A DNA stretch of 33,763 nucleotides from an archaeon GW2011_AR19 (GTDB taxonomy: Archaea; Nanobdellota; Nanobdellia; Pacearchaeales; GW2011-AR1). The DNA is taken from positions 1 through 33,763 of the forward strand of contig JWKY01000003.1 in the NCBI GenBank assembly GCA_000806015.1. Direction: 5' to 3'. The notes beneath the pieces are model-generated. The model made no database searches, was not told the origin of the DNA, and worked only from the letters and a program-made list of their open reading frames with translations. This document shows positions 15,606 to 25,548 of this stretch, one piece after another; within the stretch, counting starts at the first letter, position 1; each line of letters opens with the position of its first letter. Both the position numbers and the translations under genes were made by a program.

Positions 15606-17573
15606 TTAATCTATCTTCTTCCTCCTCAATAAATTAGCGTTTGCGACAACAGTTATTGACGAGAGAGCCATTGCTATTTCTGCTACAACAGGATGCAAAA
15701 CTCCGGCAATAGCCAAGGGAATTGCAATTGTGTTATAAGCAAAAGCCCAAAATAAATTTTGTTTTATTTTTTTAAAAGTTGCTTTTGAAAGATTAATTGC
15801 TTGAACAACTCCATTTAGCGAACCCTTTGCCAAAACAAGGTCTCCTGATTCTATAGCAATATCTGTTCCTGTTCCAAGTGCAATGCCGACGTTACTTTGT
15901 TTTAAAGCAGGCGCATCATTTATTCCGTCTCCGACAAAAGCAACCATCTTTTTTTCTTGTTCCTGTAATTCTTTGACTTTGTTTGCTTTTTCTTCCGGAA
16001 GAACATTTGCCAAGATTTCATAAATTCCAACTTTTTCTCCAATTGCTTTAGCAGTAGCTTCATTGTCTCCAGTAATCATTATTGGTCTTAATCCAGCTTC
16101 TTTTAATTTTTTAATTGCTTCAACAGAATCTTCTTTAAGAGCATCAGCAACAGCAATTGCCCCTAAAATAATTTTATTTTCAGAAATAACCATCGTGGTA
16201 TATCCGAAATTTTCAAAATTTTTTATTGTTTCTTCAAATTTTTTTAATGAAATTTTTCTTTCATTCATCAATGTTCTGTTTCCTATAACTATGCTCTTTC
16301 CTCTGATTTTTCCTTCAATACCTCTTCCTCTTAAAATTTTAAAGTTTTTCACTTCTTTATATTTTTTCAATCCAATCGATTCTGCATATAAAACAATTGC
16401 TTTTGCAATAGGATGTTCAGAATTCTTTTCAAGAGAAGCAGCAATTTCAAAAAGATTTTTTTCCTTTTCTTTTGGATAAACTTCTGCAACTTCCGGCTTG
16501 CCTTTTGTGATAGTTCCCGTTTTATCCAGGACAATTATTTTAATTTCTTTCATTGTCTGAATTGCTTCTCCTTTTTTTATTAAAATTCCCCTTTTTGCAC
16601 CCATTCCGGAACCAACCATCAAAGCTGTCGGCGTTGCTAATCCTAAAGCGCAAGGACAAGCAATTACAAGAACAGCTATTCCGATGCTGATTGACCTGCT
16701 TAAATCATTAGAAAAAATCAGCCAAGCAAAAAAGGTTAACAATGCAACAACTAAAATAATCGGAACAAAAATGCTTGTAATTTTGTCTGCAAGTTTTTGT
16801 ATAGGTATTTTTTCACTCTGTGTTTCTTCAACTAATTTTATTATATGCGCAAGAAAAGTGTCTTTTCCAATTTTTGTTGCTTTAACATACAAAATTCCGT
16901 CCTGATTTATTGTAGCGCCAATTACATTATCGCCCTTAATTTTATCTCTAGGAATTGATTCTCCTGTAACCATTGACTCATCCACAGAAGATTCTCCTTT
17001 TACAATAATTCCATCAGTTGGAATTTTTTCTCCAGGTTTTATAATTAATATATCATTCACTTTAACTTCAGAAATGTCAATTTCAATTTCTTGATTATTT
17101 TTTAAAATTCTTGCTTTTTTTGCTCCAAGTTCAAGAAGTTTTTTAATTTCCTGACTGGCTCTCCCTCTTGCAACAGCTTCAACATATTTTCCGGTTGTAA
17201 AAAAAGCCATAATCATTGCAGAAACTCCTGAATAATCATCTACAATTCCTGTGAAACTTAAGAATCCGGTTAAGTATGCAACAATGGTTCCGAGAGCTAT
17301 TAAAGAATCCATATTAAAATAAAATGTAAACAATCCGCGCATTCCACTTTTAATAGTATCCCATCCAAAAATAAAAAGAACAGGAAATCCCAAAACCAAT
17401 AAAATAGGGACCATCCAACTTTCTGGTAAAATCTCAATGCCAAATAGTCTTCCTGAGAACATGAAAATAGCTATTGGAATTGTAAAAAGCCAGGAGAAAA
17501 TTAATTTTTTCTTCCAGATTTTAATTTCTTCATCTTCTGCTGGTTCGTCGTGTTTTCCGTGTTCGTGATTCAT
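15606..17573 (-). CDS. copA: Copper-type P1B-ATPase without an N-terminal HMA domain
   Basis: [50 protein letters not shown]-terminal His residues [10 protein letters not shown]. Confidence 0.92.
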
Positions 17574-18222: not shown

Positions 18223-18441
18223 TTATTCCTTTTCTATATTTGAAATTTTATATCCTGTTCGCACAACAGCTTTTTTAATTTCATCTTCTGAAACAGAATC
18301 TTCGCATTCTGCTGTTCCTTTTTTTAGCATTAAACTTACATTTGCATTCTTAACTCCAGGAACTTTTTTCAAACTTTTTTCTACATTTGATGCGCAGCTT
18401 GCGCAATGCATTCCGTTTATAGTAATTTTTATTTTTTTCAT
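18223..18441 (-). CDS. copZ: Heavy-metal-associated (HMA) copper chaperone
   Basis: GMHCASCASNVEKSLKKVPGVKNANVSL, 72 aa. Confidence 0.9.
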   Translation of the reverse strand: MKKIKITINGMHCASCASNVEKSLKKVPGVKNANVSLMLKKGTAECEDSVSEDEIKKAVVRTGYKISNIEKE

Positions 18442-18830: not shown

Positions 18831-19190
18831 TTAATCTTTACTTTTCATTTCATTTAAAATATGAATGCAATTTTTAGACATGTGTTTGTCAATCAAGAAC
18901 ATTAGGGGCTTGATTGTCTCTTCATTTAATTTATAATATCTGAATTTTCCATTTATTTCATCTAAAACAAAACCGCACATTTTTAATCTGGCTAAATTAT
19001 GCGACACTGCCGTCTGGTCAAAATTTAATTCTTTTATTATTTCAGAAACATTTTTCTTGCCTTTTCTTAATAAATTAATAATTTTTAATCTTGGTTCAGA
19101 AACAAGAGTTCCAAAAAATATTTTGTATGCTTCGTATATCTGTTGTTCATTTATTTTATGAGGGTGTTGTAATATGGACTTGTTTATCAT
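18831..19190 (-). CDS. ArsR-family transcriptional regulator
   Basis: SEPRLKIINLLRKGKKNVSEIIKELNFDQTAVSHNLARLKMCGFV. Confidence 0.9.
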   Translation of the reverse strand: MINKSILQHPHKINEQQIYEAYKIFFGTLVSEPRLKIINLLRKGKKNVSEIIKELNFDQTAVSHNLARLKMCGFVLDEINGKFRYYKLNEETIKPLMFLIDKHMSKNCIHILNEMKSKD

Positions 19191-19748: not shown

Positions 19749-20294
19749 TTATTTTATGAATTCATCTATTCTAACTTCGCTATATTCTTCAAGAATTTCA
19801 ATTTTATTGAATTTTGTCAAAGCAATTTTTGCGTCCATCTTTTTGAAGGGAGCAACATAAACATTTGCAGGATATTTTTCTGCAAAAGCTTCAAGATTGT
19901 CTATTAATCCTTCTTCACAAACATAGTCTTCACAATTATAGTTTATGATAATCCCTGGAGGACCGGAACCATCGGCATGCTCAAGCATATGTTTTTGTAC
20001 GGTTATCTGCATCTGCTCTTTAAGAACATGAGATTCGGGAGAAACTTCAATATGTCCCTGCATGTCCGTTGGAGGAAGGATTTTAACACTTGAAATTCCC
20101 CAGACGATTAATCCGACAATTACTCCAATAATAATTAATGTAATTGTCCAATTTTTTATTTTTTTAATTGGGATTTTTTTCTTTGGTTCTTTAATTAATT
20201 CAGAATGTTTTGCTGCATTATGCGAGGCTAAACCATCTGCATTTGCAAAAGTTCTATCGCAAGCTTCACATTTATATATTATTTCTTCCGTCAT
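19749..20294 (-). CDS. C2H2 zinc finger + TM + DUF3105-like domain
   Basis: YKCEACDRTFANADGLASHNAAKH; one TM; MLEHADGSGPPGIIINYNCEDYVCEEG...IALTKFNKIEILEEYSEVRIDEFI. Confidence 0.75.
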   Translation of the reverse strand: MTEEIIYKCEACDRTFANADGLASHNAAKHSELIKEPKKKIPIKKIKNWTITLIIIGVIVGLIVWGISSVKILPPTDMQGHIEVSPESHVLKEQMQITVQKHMLEHADGSGPPGIIINYNCEDYVCEEGLIDNLEAFAEKYPANVYVAPFKKMDAKIALTKFNKIEILEEYSEVRIDEFIK

Positions 20295-21393: not shown

Positions 21394-22263
21394 TTAAATA
21401 ATTTTTCTCCCGGATTCTTCCCAGGCAGTCATCCCTCCATCAAGCTCATAAATTTTTTGATAGCCCATTTCTAATAATTGTTTTGATGCATCTGCAGACA
21501 TTTTCCCGCTTCTGCAATAAACAGCTATTGGAACAGAAACATCCATAGGCAATTTTTCCATATACTTGCCAAGATTTTCCCAATCTTCAATTATTTCATC
21601 AGTTCCGTTAATCTCGCCGGAATAAGGAATGTGAACATTTAATAAAAAAACACTTTCATTTTGAATAACTTTTTCAAATTCTTCCGGAGGCAAAAGTTCA
21701 ATTGAGCCTGAAATAGTGTTTTGATTTTCTCCTGAACCCCCTAAACTAATCTGAATTAAAATTCCGACGATTATTAATAAAATAAGAGTTAACAAAGTTC
21801 CCTGAAACGGAAAAGTTTTGTAATTTCTTTTTTTAGTGATTGCTTTGCTTATTGAAGGAGTTGACAAAACAATTATTCCTCCAAGAAAACTGCTTGCTAA
21901 AGAATAATTAAAAACATAAGTTGTTCCATAATCTCCTATAAAAGAAAGATATAATGGGCCAAGAGCCTTGAATAAAGGCATTAAAGGCAGAACAGTTGTA
22001 AAAAATATTATTGCAACTATGAGAAAATTTTGAAGCGGAATATATTTCTTTTTAATTATTCTTGCAAACCACATTCCCATTGACATTGCAAAAGCTCCAA
22101 GAAAAAGCGTAACAACAACTTTGCTTACTCCAAGCCACATTGCAGCGGCTCCGGCAGCTCCTGCTCCGACAACGCAAAGAGGGCAGTGAGCCATTACGCT
22201 TTTTGATAAAAAAATAATTAATGGAATTGCAAATAATAAAGAAAAAAGTTTATTTAATTTCAT
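21394..22263 (-). CDS. Multi-TM protein fused to a C-terminal rhodanese domain
   Basis: AHCPLCVVGAGAAGAAAMWLG N-terminus; IAVYCRSGKMSADASKQLLEMGYQKIYELDGGMTAWEESG rhodanese. Confidence 0.88.
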   Translation of the reverse strand: MKLNKLFSLLFAIPLIIFLSKSVMAHCPLCVVGAGAAGAAAMWLGVSKVVVTLFLGAFAMSMGMWFARIIKKKYIPLQNFLIVAIIFFTTVLPLMPLFKALGPLYLSFIGDYGTTYVFNYSLASSFLGGIIVLSTPSISKAITKKRNYKTFPFQGTLLTLILLIIVGILIQISLGGSGENQNTISGSIELLPPEEFEKVIQNESVFLLNVHIPYSGEINGTDEIIEDWENLGKYMEKLPMDVSVPIAVYCRSGKMSADASKQLLEMGYQKIYELDGGMTAWEESGRKII

Positions 22264-22300
22264 ATTATATATAAAGAAATTTCATATAAAAGGGTTTGGG

Positions 22301-22314
22301 TGAAACTGGTTTCA
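22301..22314. promoter_or_regulatory. Palindromic operator TGAAACTGGTTTCA
   Basis: Upstream of TATA-like TTTTATATG for the 22263 gene; differs at one central base from the palindrome at 25002. Confidence 0.7.
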
Positions 22315-22331: not shown

Positions 22332-22703
22332 TCATTCAACAATCAAAACCCCTTTCATAGCCTCGTGTCCGCTTCCGCAATAAATATGGCAAGAAAAAGA
22401 AAAATTTCCCTTCTTTTTTGCAACAAATTCCCCCTCGCCATGAATATCTATTCCAAACTCAGGAATTGAAATAGCATGCTCTACATCAAGATTATTTATT
22501 TTAATTCTTACTCTTTCCCCTTCTTTAACTTTTATAACATTTGGATTAAATTCAAATTGTTTCGCATTAACAGTTATCTCTCTAACATTTCCATTGTCAA
22601 TAACTTTGGCACTAGTAACTGATTTAAAATTAAAAATTAATAAAAAAATTAAAATAATAAAAATAAACAAACTAACAAAAATAATTAATTTTTTATTCTG
22701 CAT
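22332..22703 (-). CDS. Membrane-anchored cupredoxin with CuA-type ligand motif
   Basis: VEHAISIPEFGIDI and CHIYCGSGHEAMKG (C-x3-C-x3-H-x2-M). Confidence 0.88.
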   Translation of the reverse strand: MQNKKLIIFVSLFIFIILIFLLIFNFKSVTSAKVIDNGNVREITVNAKQFEFNPNVIKVKEGERVRIKINNLDVEHAISIPEFGIDIHGEGEFVAKKKGNFSFSCHIYCGSGHEAMKGVLIVE

Positions 22704-22707
22704 TTTA

Positions 22708-23190
22708 TTATATTTTCATAAACTCGCTGGAAGTTCCGTCGTTATTTACTGCATAAATTATAAATTCTCCCGATTTTGGTCCAGGCATTCCAGGAGAACC
22801 AGAGGGCATTCCAGGAAGCGCGATTCCTTTTATGTCTGGTTTTTCTCTTAAAAGTTTTTCAACAGCTTCAAGAGGCATGTGCCCTTCAATAAAATAATTT
22901 CCGATTATTGTTGTGTGGCAGGATTGAAGTTCAGAAGGAATTCCGTATTTATTTTTTATTTCATTTGGGTCATCAACACTAAGAGAATTTACTTTAGGAG
23001 AAACTTTGCCATCAATATAAGTCACATAAGTTGAACAGCATCCGCATGTCAGAGATTTGTGAATATCTATCTCTCCTGGAATTGCATTTATATTTTCAAA
23101 ACTACTTGCTTTTGAATTTTGCGAGAAAATAAATATTCCTGCTAAAATAATAACTGCTGCAATTATTAAAATTAATAAACTTTTCTTCAT
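22708..23190 (-). CDS. DUF411-family metal-binding protein
   Basis: HKSLTCGCCSTYVTYI, GIPSELQSCHTTIIGNYFIEGHMPLEAVEKLL, IKGIALPGMPSGSPGMPG. Confidence 0.92.
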   Translation of the reverse strand: MKKSLLILIIAAVIILAGIFIFSQNSKASSFENINAIPGEIDIHKSLTCGCCSTYVTYIDGKVSPKVNSLSVDDPNEIKNKYGIPSELQSCHTTIIGNYFIEGHMPLEAVEKLLREKPDIKGIALPGMPSGSPGMPGPKSGEFIIYAVNNDGTSSEFMKI

Positions 23191-23691: not shown

Positions 23692-23859
23692 TTAACATCC
23701 TCCGACCATTGCGCTTGATGATGCTGAACTTACTGCAGAGGCTGTTTCAGAATTTACATTTTGAGTTGCAATGTTTCCGCTTCCTGTCTGGAATACAAGA
23801 TACAATGCAAACAAAAATAAAATCCCTATAACAACCCACATTATTATTTTTTTATCCAT
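23692..23859 (-). CDS. 55-aa single-TM protein ending MVGGC (missed by the ORF track)
   Basis: MDKKIIMWVVIGILFLFALYLVFQTGSGNIATQNVNSETASAVSSASSSAMVGGC. Confidence 0.75.
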   Translation of the reverse strand: MDKKIIMWVVIGILFLFALYLVFQTGSGNIATQNVNSETASAVSSASSSAMVGGC

Positions 23860-24007: not shown

Positions 24008-24289
24008 TTAACATCCTCCGACCATTGCGCTTGATGAAGATGAAGTTGCGCTACCTCCAGCTCCTGCTGGAATTATTCCATGCATTTCATAATTCATTAT
24101 TTCATCTTCTGTCCAGCCAGTTGTATCTATTTTACTATTAACCGATTTCCCGGCAATGTTTGCGCTTCCTGCCTGAAATACAAGATATAAAGCAACTAAA
24201 AATAAAACTCCTATAACAACCCACATTATTAGTTTTCTTTTACATTGTAGCTTTTCTTTTTCTAAAAGAAAAACCCATTTTTTATCCAT
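24008..24289 (-). CDS. Single-TM protein ending MVGGC, paralog of the 55-aa protein
   Basis: MDKK...LIMWVVIGVLFLVALYLVFQAGSANIA...SSSSSAMVGGC. Start at 24289 (GGAGGGTGTTAAAATGG) preferred over track start 24364. Confidence 0.75.
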   Translation of the reverse strand: MDKKWVFLLEKEKLQCKRKLIMWVVIGVLFLVALYLVFQAGSANIAGKSVNSKIDTTGWTEDEIMNYEMHGIIPAGAGGSATSSSSSAMVGGC

Positions 24290-24290
24290 T

Positions 24291-24965
24291 TTAACACCCT
24301 CCGACCATTTCCCCGCCAGATGAAATTTGCCCCTGCTCTGCTCCTCTGTATAAATTGCTTGCAAGATTTACATAATCTGTAGAATCTATTCCATTTGCTT
24401 CAAGAACTTTTGCTTTTTGTTCGTGAATTCCAGGGAAAAATAAAACTTTCCATTTTCCTAATTCAGATAATATTTCATAGTCAGACATTTCAGGATTATT
24501 AATAAGAAGATATTTAGCCAGCCCTCTCATTGCATAACTATGCGCGCATCCGCAGGCTGCCTGACCGTTTGGAAAAATTATTGCATCAGCGCCGCAGCAA
24601 TACTCGCAACTTATTGCGCTTCCTATTTTAATATATCTCGCCATCTGCTCGCTGTTCAGCTCCTTGCTTTCATATGAACTTAATTTTTGAATTACTTCAT
24701 TAGCAAGTTTAGGATTGCTTGCAGAAACATCGTCGTAGCTAACTCCTAATGCTGAACCATAAACTGCAGGAACTCCTGTTGGAATTATATCTGAGCTTAA
24801 AATAGTCGCTCCAGTAATTCCGGCGTCGCCGCTAATATTTGCTCCCGGATTTCCATAAATTTTGCCAGCAGCAAAAACTATAATTAATGCCAATGCTGCA
24901 ACTATTCCTATTTGAATATAAAATTCAACATCTGTTTTTTTTGTTTGTTGACTTGCACTTTCCAT
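24291..24965 (-). CDS. TM-anchored Cys-rich protein (CEYCCGA...CGCAHSYAMRG) ending MVGGC
   Basis: One N-terminal TM; ISCEYCCGADAIIFPNGQAACGCAHSYAMRGLAKYLL; ends GGEMVGGC. Confidence 0.82.
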   Translation of the reverse strand: MESASQQTKKTDVEFYIQIGIVAALALIIVFAAGKIYGNPGANISGDAGITGATILSSDIIPTGVPAVYGSALGVSYDDVSASNPKLANEVIQKLSSYESKELNSEQMARYIKIGSAISCEYCCGADAIIFPNGQAACGCAHSYAMRGLAKYLLINNPEMSDYEILSELGKWKVLFFPGIHEQKAKVLEANGIDSTDYVNLASNLYRGAEQGQISSGGEMVGGC

Positions 24966-25001
24966 AATTTTTCAAAGAATTAATCTTTTATAAATGCTTC
25001 T

Positions 25002-25017
25002 GTGAAACTAGTTTCAC
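25002..25017. promoter_or_regulatory. Perfect 16-bp palindrome GTGAAACTAGTTTCAC in the divergent promoter region
   Basis: Located ~9 bp upstream of TATA-like ATTTATAAAAG for the minus-strand operon and upstream of the plus-strand regulator gene. Confidence 0.75.
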
Positions 25018-25062
25018 TGGGAGTTTAGCAAGTTTTTTAAATCCAAATTTCATAAAAAGAAT

Positions 25063-25548
25063 ATGGAAAATAAAAACATTGGATTTTTGCTCATTGGAAT
25101 TTCAATTTTAATAATTGTTATAATCTTTTTATATAGTTCTGCTTTAAAAGAAATAAGCGCGGGGTCTTGTTCAATGGAAGAATTTAGCTGTCCTATGAAT
25201 AAATCTATAGACAATCAGACATATATTTCTCTGGGAGTTGTTGCTTTGCTGATGATTGTAGGATTCATTTTAATCTTTTCAAAACCCCAAGAAAGAATAA
25301 TTTTTAAAACCAGAACAATAGAAAAAAAATTCCCAAAAAAAGAAATTAACACTCAGGAACTAAAGCCGGAAGAAAAAGAGATATTAAGATTAGTTCAAAA
25401 TAATAAAGCAATATTTCAGGCAGAGCTTATTGAAAAAACCAAGTTTGGAAAAGCAAAAGTAACTCGTATTTTAGATAGATTAGAAGGAAGAGGATTTGTT
25501 GAGAGAAAAAGAAGGGGAATGACCAACATAGTTGTTTTGAAAGAATAA
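25063..25548 (+). CDS. Membrane-anchored wHTH regulator with Cys/Met exoloop
   Basis: Two TMs flanking EISAGSCSMEEFSCPMNKSIDNQ; C-terminal ILRLVQNNKAIFQAELIEKTKFGKAKVTRILDRLEGRGFVERKRRGMTNIVVL. Confidence 0.85.
   Translation: MENKNIGFLLIGISILIIVIIFLYSSALKEISAGSCSMEEFSCPMNKSIDNQTYISLGVVALLMIVGFILIFSKPQERIIFKTRTIEKKFPKKEINTQELKPEEKEILRLVQNNKAIFQAELIEKTKFGKAKVTRILDRLEGRGFVERKRRGMTNIVVLKE

Follow-up and report, generated by a model that had tools for sequence, protein, structure and literature searches.

A divergent copper gene cluster of the archaeon GW2011_AR19 is probably controlled by a membrane protein that may itself sense copper. Our analysis of the window, that is, the whole stretch of 33,763 nucleotides, supports a family of transmembrane one-component regulators in which a loop likely binds Cu(I) and a winged helix acts on the palindrome TGAAACTAGTTTCA, controlling a copper operon, a reading to which we assign a probability of roughly 0.6. 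A preliminary description had read this gene as a one-component metal sensor, and this reading is supported, with metal binding, the identity of the metal, the topology and the sign of regulation remaining inferred. The source genome is 678 kb in size and 75% complete.

The regulator gene (25063-25548, plus strand) encodes 161 amino acids comprising two transmembrane (TM) helices, an exoloop and a C-terminal MarR/DUF7343 winged helix; its translation opens MENKNIGFLLIGISILIIVIIFLYSSALKEISAGSCSMEEFSCPMNKSIDNQTYISLGVVALLMIVGFILIFSKPQ, and the loop reads SAGSCSMEEFSCPMNKSIDNQ. As initially claimed, two TM helices flank a short loop, which we find to be 20-30 residues long. Hydropathy over 105 orthologs places the core of helix 1 at residues 7-24 (25081-25134, plus strand) and that of helix 2 at residues 55-72 (25225-25278, plus strand), and in the AlphaFold2 model obtained with these 105 orthologs (mean pLDDT 84.9, pTM 0.47) helices 3-35 and 44-72 form a hairpin. 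A low-confidence or disordered linker, residues 79-91, separates this hairpin from the winged helix, residues 102-159 (25366-25539, plus strand), which is delimited by Pfam, AlphaFold2, Foldseek and the ortholog alignment. Residues 103-159 score above threshold for both DUF7343 (36.0 bits, cut-off 27.6) and MarR (34.6 bits, cut-off 24.6), and Foldseek ranks MarR-type winged helices first, the best match being the MarR-operator complex 5h3r with an E value of only 3e-3. The winged helix-turn-helix (wHTH) proposed for the cytoplasmic part was thus recovered. With TM segments and a DNA-binding domain in one chain, and with two hydrophobic helices in the 105 orthologs, the protein qualifies as a membrane-bound one-component regulator, and the existence of a membrane wHTH family is well established. 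Its topology, in contrast, is inferred from charge distribution and not from experiment: the N-terminus and the segment after helix 2 are rich in K and R, the loop is acidic, and the positive-inside pattern fits N-in, loop-out and C-in in 102 of the 105 orthologs. The extracytoplasmic location of the loop, also part of the original claim, therefore holds as a prediction only.

Members of this family were found in 276 of 371 phylum genomes by profile search (E of 1e-12 or better), and a search of 92 relatives gave a match in 60 genomes, 46 of them strong; 80 further ortholog loci were added by searching genome contigs. The titles of related loci include Pacearchaeota, Woesearchaeota, Nanoarchaeota, Aenigmatarchaeota, Micrarchaeota and Nanohaloarchaeota, which identifies the source as a DPANN archaeon. 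Although these orthologs share down to about 31% identity, the predicted DNA-contact surface of the winged helix appears unusually frozen, that is, near invariant: Q119, K130, R135, R150, R151, G152, M153 and N155 are invariant in 105 orthologs, and R148, K149, D138, E141 and E147 nearly so. The same genome also encodes a paralogue (G000:C1:151572-151886), a larger membrane-anchored wHTH protein that lacks the Cys loop and has a more extensive N-terminal domain instead. At its locus (L002 1-3315, G000:C1), two weak palindromes with two mismatches flank the paralogue gene, whose neighbour is a highly acidic protein of secreted type.

The predicted extracytoplasmic loop (residues 32-52; 25156-25218, plus strand) was defined by ortholog conservation and ligand statistics. 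Over 107 aligned orthologs, conservation reaches 97% for Cys36 (25168-25170), 99% for Cys43 (25189-25191), 79% for Pro44 and 63% for Met45 (25195-25197), and His occupies alignment column 40 in 68%. Met45 is replaced in about a third of the orthologs, mostly by His; the commonest form of the loop is C-x-H-G-x2-C-P-M, and another large group has loops ending in C-P-[AV]-H. The second Cys is followed by Met at C+2 or His at C+3 in 95 of 106 loops, with neither in the remaining 11, and His or Met lies between the two Cys, also in 95 of 106. The preliminary description had pointed to C-S-M and C-P-M groups as metal ligands and had named poor conservation of the loop Cys and Met as a possible refutation. 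When this check was run the proposal survived it, as far as both Cys and the Met of C-P-M are concerned, but the Met of C-S-M (residue 38), kept in only about 7% of orthologs, is dispensable. In 100 of 106 orthologs the protein has no Cys other than these two; their spacing ranges from 4 to 13 residues, and among the loop ligands of the aligned sequences only they are universal. CueR needs no more than two thiolates for Cu(I), holding the ion between two Cys seven residues apart, a pair comparable to the C-x(4-13)-C loop found here; this would account for the universality of the Cys alone. Binding of Cu(I) by the loop is nonetheless inferred from its ligands and from the targets described below, as biochemical data are lacking for the whole family.

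Between the divergent start codons at 24965 (minus strand) and 25063 (plus strand) lies GTGAAACTAGTTTCAC, a perfect 16-bp palindrome (25002-25017) whose 14-bp core, TGAAACTAGTTTCA, spans 25003-25016; both the divergence of the gene from a DUF411/cupredoxin operon and the palindrome in the shared promoter region had been noticed beforehand, and both are correct. The upstream regions of close orthologs hold the same palindrome. Among 108 non-redundant ortholog loci, picked by protein similarity alone, the core is exact in 53 and present with at most one mismatch in 83, whereas a second-order Markov model built on this DNA predicts 0.006 and 0.30, respectively. Similarly, the exact core is found in 90 of the 371 phylum genomes, compared with two for a reversed control, and in 29 of the 92 relatives, compared with none. 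Such recurrence, at the loci and in the genomes alike, cannot be due to chance. Moreover, of 75 exact genomic sites listed, 60 are within 2.5 kb of a regulator gene, against a chance of about 0.5%, and 39 are within 100 bp; when the first 92 genomes are left out, 48 of 58 listed exact sites are within 2.5 kb. Some phylum genomes may be identical to assemblies from which loci were fetched, and the sample is therefore not fully independent. On this comparative evidence, in the absence of binding data, the palindrome is evidently the operator of the regulator. We did not find its sequence, TGAAACTAGTTTCA, in the literature searched.

The operator is placed either upstream of the regulator, within a divergent promoter, as in the clade of the window, or just past the regulator stop, before the next gene. 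In 17 loci (L046, L031, L052, L059, L063, L066, L086, L090, L094, L106 and seven others) the regulator's operator opens with the TGA stop of the regulator gene itself, such that the coding end is fused with the regulatory site. The window contains a second operator, TGAAACTGGTTTCA, with one mismatch (22301-22314), inside the operon and 9 bp from the TATA box of the rhodanese gene (22284-22291, minus strand); beyond these two sites of the cluster, a pattern search of the window genome returned only sites with two mismatches, about as many as the control. At three loci (L142, L136 and L128) the operator precedes copper-type genes with no regulator on the fetched stretch. L144 and L137 also have exact sites, but these are within reading frames and were dismissed as chance occurrences. 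One genome, G314, holds nine exact copies of TGAAACTAGTTTCA (contigs C3, C7, C27, C33 and C34), and among the five listed none is near its regulator gene; either an enlarged regulon or a repeat could be behind these copies, which remain unexplained.

The geometry of the operator relative to the promoter is fixed. The TATA box of the divergent operon, TTTATAAA (24987-24994, minus strand), recognized by its sequence and by a spacing profile over 81 sites, lies 8 bp from the operator core, and with the start codon at 24965 the transcript should be near-leaderless; a probable TATA box of the regulator gene itself (25033-25042, plus strand) has a spacing to the operator that varies among orthologs. 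When sites are oriented to their target gene, a TATA-like match is present at 58 sites, and in 50 of these it lies 7-10 bp beyond the operator; the start codon is often 37-39 bp past the operator, again implying near-leaderless transcripts. Of the 64 sites located downstream of their regulator gene, 42 have a third half-site, GTTTC, that begins exactly at +18, just past the TATA box, and 44 have one within +17 to +19, against an average of 0.3 sites in composition shuffles. A TATA box bracketed in this way by operator and half-site suggests steric repression.

The sign of regulation is nevertheless open, since the site of CopR from Pyrococcus furiosus also lies directly upstream of the BRE and yet CopR is an activator (PMC7830388). 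It is possible, if only tentatively so, that the regulator described here works likewise, as a tethered dimer upstream of the BRE that recruits TBP and TFB when metal is bound; this variant does not exclude the other steps of our preferred explanation. The window clade speaks for it, as there the palindrome abuts the upstream side of the BRE and the half-site on the far side is missing from all 17 upstream-type sites, as in CopR (PMC7830388). In the downstream-type sites, however, a half-site right behind the TATA box would be expected to block TBP and TFB. We therefore lean, though not far, towards repression.

The cluster that diverges from the regulator runs on the minus strand from 24965 to about 15606, and encodes a Cys-rich membrane protein, small proteins ending in MVGGC, DUF411, cupredoxin and TM-rhodanese proteins, an ArsR regulator, an HMA chaperone and a P1B ATPase. 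Its first gene (24291-24965) specifies a TM-anchored Cys-rich protein with the motifs SCEYCCG and CGCAHS and a C-terminal MVGGC (SCEYCCG...CGCAHSYAMRGLAKYL). No Pfam or NCBIfam family matches this protein above cut-off, and among orthologs no other gene comes first after the operator as often (24 of about 80); judging from the sequences, it represents an unnamed copper or thiol protein family of DPANN archaea. Later genes encode the DUF411 protein (22708-23190; PF04214, 7.5e-25), the cupredoxin-like protein (22332-22703; PF13473, 3e-9) and, behind the second operator, the TM and rhodanese protein (21394-22263; PF00581, 5.9e-11). Further along are the ArsR/SmtB-family regulator (18831-19190; NF033788, 63 bits, cut-off 55), the CopZ-like HMA metallochaperone (18223-18441; PF00403, 4.5e-14) and a Cu(I) P1B-1 ATPase (15606-17573; TIGR01511, 585.7 bits, cut-off 397), whose CPC, YNx4P and MxxSS motifs were identified by eye. 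The presence of an ArsR-family regulator within the cluster was counted against our preferred explanation.

Two further features of these neighbourhoods deserve mention. First, the C-terminus reads exactly MVGGC in three proteins of the window (24291-24965, 24008-24364 and 23692-23859, all on the minus strand) and in members from about 25 ortholog loci. Among 1424 neighbourhood ORFs, 45 of the 46 proteins ending in GGC carry this tail; they are small, membrane-anchored and belong to several unrelated sequence clusters. The tail might handle metals or thiols or act as a processing or sorting signal, and we found no mention of it in such a role in the literature. Second, the protein at 19749-20294 (minus strand) combines a C2H2-type zinc-finger-like motif, a TM helix and a DUF3105-like domain, with Pfam matches below threshold, and its relatives occur at a few other regulator loci.

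Copper genes accompany the regulator well beyond the window. Neighbours were labelled by clustering their sequences and by motif patterns, and representatives were compared with Pfam; in 50 loci of at least 9 kb this revealed a P1B ATPase in 31, an HMA protein in 31, a cupredoxin-like protein in 14 and DUF411 in 6. At least one of Cu-ATPase, HMA, cupredoxin or DUF411 is present in 39 of these 50 long loci, as anticipated for orthologs next to copper genes, and in 46 if Cys-rich proteins are counted; by comparison, we estimate from ATPase matches that a random 12.5-kb stretch contains a Cu-ATPase in about 1% of cases. Genes fronted by the operator encode Cu(I) P1B-ATPases, HMA, HMA-DsbD, DUF411, cupredoxin and Cys-rich proteins. 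In the 92 relatives, strong regulator matches and Cu-ATPases co-occur (36/10/7/39, Fisher p = 1.4e-9), and in 25 of the 36 genomes with both they are no more than 15 kb apart on one contig. Kinship of the genomes inflates such p-values, of which the conserved position is independent. Linkage to copper genes is thus demonstrated, and we regard the connection of regulator, operator and regulon as strong.

What the loop responds to is less certain. The main rival to copper is a disulfide redox switch, in which the Cys pair would reversibly report extracytoplasmic oxidant or thiol status, and copper genes would be induced because copper toxicity is a redox stress. We consider this unlikely, but it is kept alive by thiol-handling neighbours, as DsbD-like (DsbD_2), DsbA-like and rhodanese-like genes are frequent targets or neighbours of the regulator, and a disulfide would explain equally well why only two Cys are universal and why their spacing is variable. 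However, a disulfide needs no Met or His, which nonetheless stand beside the Cys in most loops, and it is HMA, Cu-ATPase and cupredoxin that dominate the loci with a C-x-M loop, 22 of 24 of which carry a copper-type gene. It is less probable still that the loop senses not copper but a different soft metal or metalloid (Ag, Hg, Cd or As). All soft metals are bound by two thiolates, and HMA domains and ArsR regulators also occur in Hg, As and Cd systems; but 29 of 33 full-length linked ATPases have all three motifs of the Cu(I)/Ag(I) signature (CPC/YNx4P/MxxSS), cupredoxin and DUF411 indicate copper, and no mer or ars enzyme was found among the frequent neighbour clusters. Equally improbable is that the loop and TM helices are a mere anchor, the DNA-binding state being set by another protein such as the Cys-rich first-gene product or the ATPase, for although the loop is short and anchoring beside a membrane-protein operon would permit such partner control, no tool supports it directly and the two Cys are near invariant in an otherwise variable loop.

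Comparison with known systems did not place the regulator in any described family of copper regulators. Its likeness to MarR/DUF7343 (PF01047, PF24034) resides in the C-terminal domain, above both cut-offs, and in the palindromic operator beside the gene, yet standard MarR proteins are soluble, with dimerisation helices around the wHTH, where the regulator has an N-terminal TM hairpin with a Cys loop. CopR of Thermococcales, an archaeal copper regulator with an N-terminal HTH and a TRASH metal domain of motif TTNNCAWWWTGNNAA (PMC7830388), is similarly divergent from copper genes, with a semi-palindromic site directly upstream of the BRE (PMC7830388), but it differs in lacking the TM-hairpin sensor and in its unrelated operator; membership was rejected since no TRASH match appeared in Pfam at E up to 1 and Cys36 and Cys43 are the only Cys. 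CopY/BlaI (Penicillinase_R) was rejected as well, with PF03965 at 15.1 bits against a cut-off of 22.6 and no Cys past residue 43, hence no C-terminal CxC, as were MerR/CueR and CsoR, without any MerR or CsoR match in Pfam at E up to 1. A CusS-like two-component sensor was ruled out by the absence of a kinase domain in the regulator and of any frequent kinase cluster in regulator neighbourhoods, even though CusS-type proteins resemble the proposed loop in sensing copper outside the membrane. ArnR and ArnR1 of Sulfolobus acidocaldarius are, like the regulator, archaeal membrane-bound one-component regulators with two TM segments (PMC6396743), but their HTH is N-terminal and their TM part C-terminal, the reverse order, and they have HAMP-like and sensor domains, control the archaellum upon starvation, and lack a metal motif. 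We found no description in the literature of DPANN copper regulators of this kind or of transmembrane one-component copper sensors.

From conserved Cys in an outside loop, a DNA-binding domain inside and an operator before copper genes, we infer that the regulator probably senses copper, or a similar metal, and exerts control in response. The short loop, with two invariant Cys and Met or His, would most likely bind Cu(I), although Ag(I) or a different soft ion is possible. On the cytoplasmic side, the MarR-type winged helix, inferred to be probably dimeric, would bind TGAAACTAGTTTCA beside the BRE and TATA box of an operon for exporter ATPase, HMA chaperone, cupredoxin, DUF411 and Cys-rich membrane proteins. 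Binding of metal may then shift the TM hairpin and alter operator binding, most likely releasing repression, such that sensing and transcriptional control would reside in one protein with no kinase between. The generalization that such a kinase-free family, in most DPANN-phylum genomes sampled, detects copper outside the cell through a C-x(n)-C-P-M/H loop and directly governs an operator that brackets the TATA box (TGAAACTAGTTTCA, then some 9 bp, TATA, and GTTTC at +18), has not changed in sequence even though the proteins have diverged to about 35% identity, and in many species starts with the regulator's stop codon, strikes us as only slightly better supported than its negation.

Extracellular copper sensing is assigned to two-component kinases, and most one-component regulators are without TM regions (PMC10141476), the one-component copper sensors treated there being cytoplasmic. 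Compared with CueR, CsoR and CopY on the one hand, and CusS and CopS on the other, sensing and DNA binding would here be united in one membrane protein without phosphotransfer. Membrane-bound one-component regulators are already known in archaea, and what is added is a well-supported regulon with an untested ligand. If true, a single membrane protein for both jobs would be a new sensing architecture, and its operator would be conserved across a phylum of mostly uncultured archaea with very small genomes. With the operator defined, in vitro tests of the idea need no culture of the organism, and DPANN archaea would gain a predicted regulon that points to their copper-handling genes, including several unnamed families.
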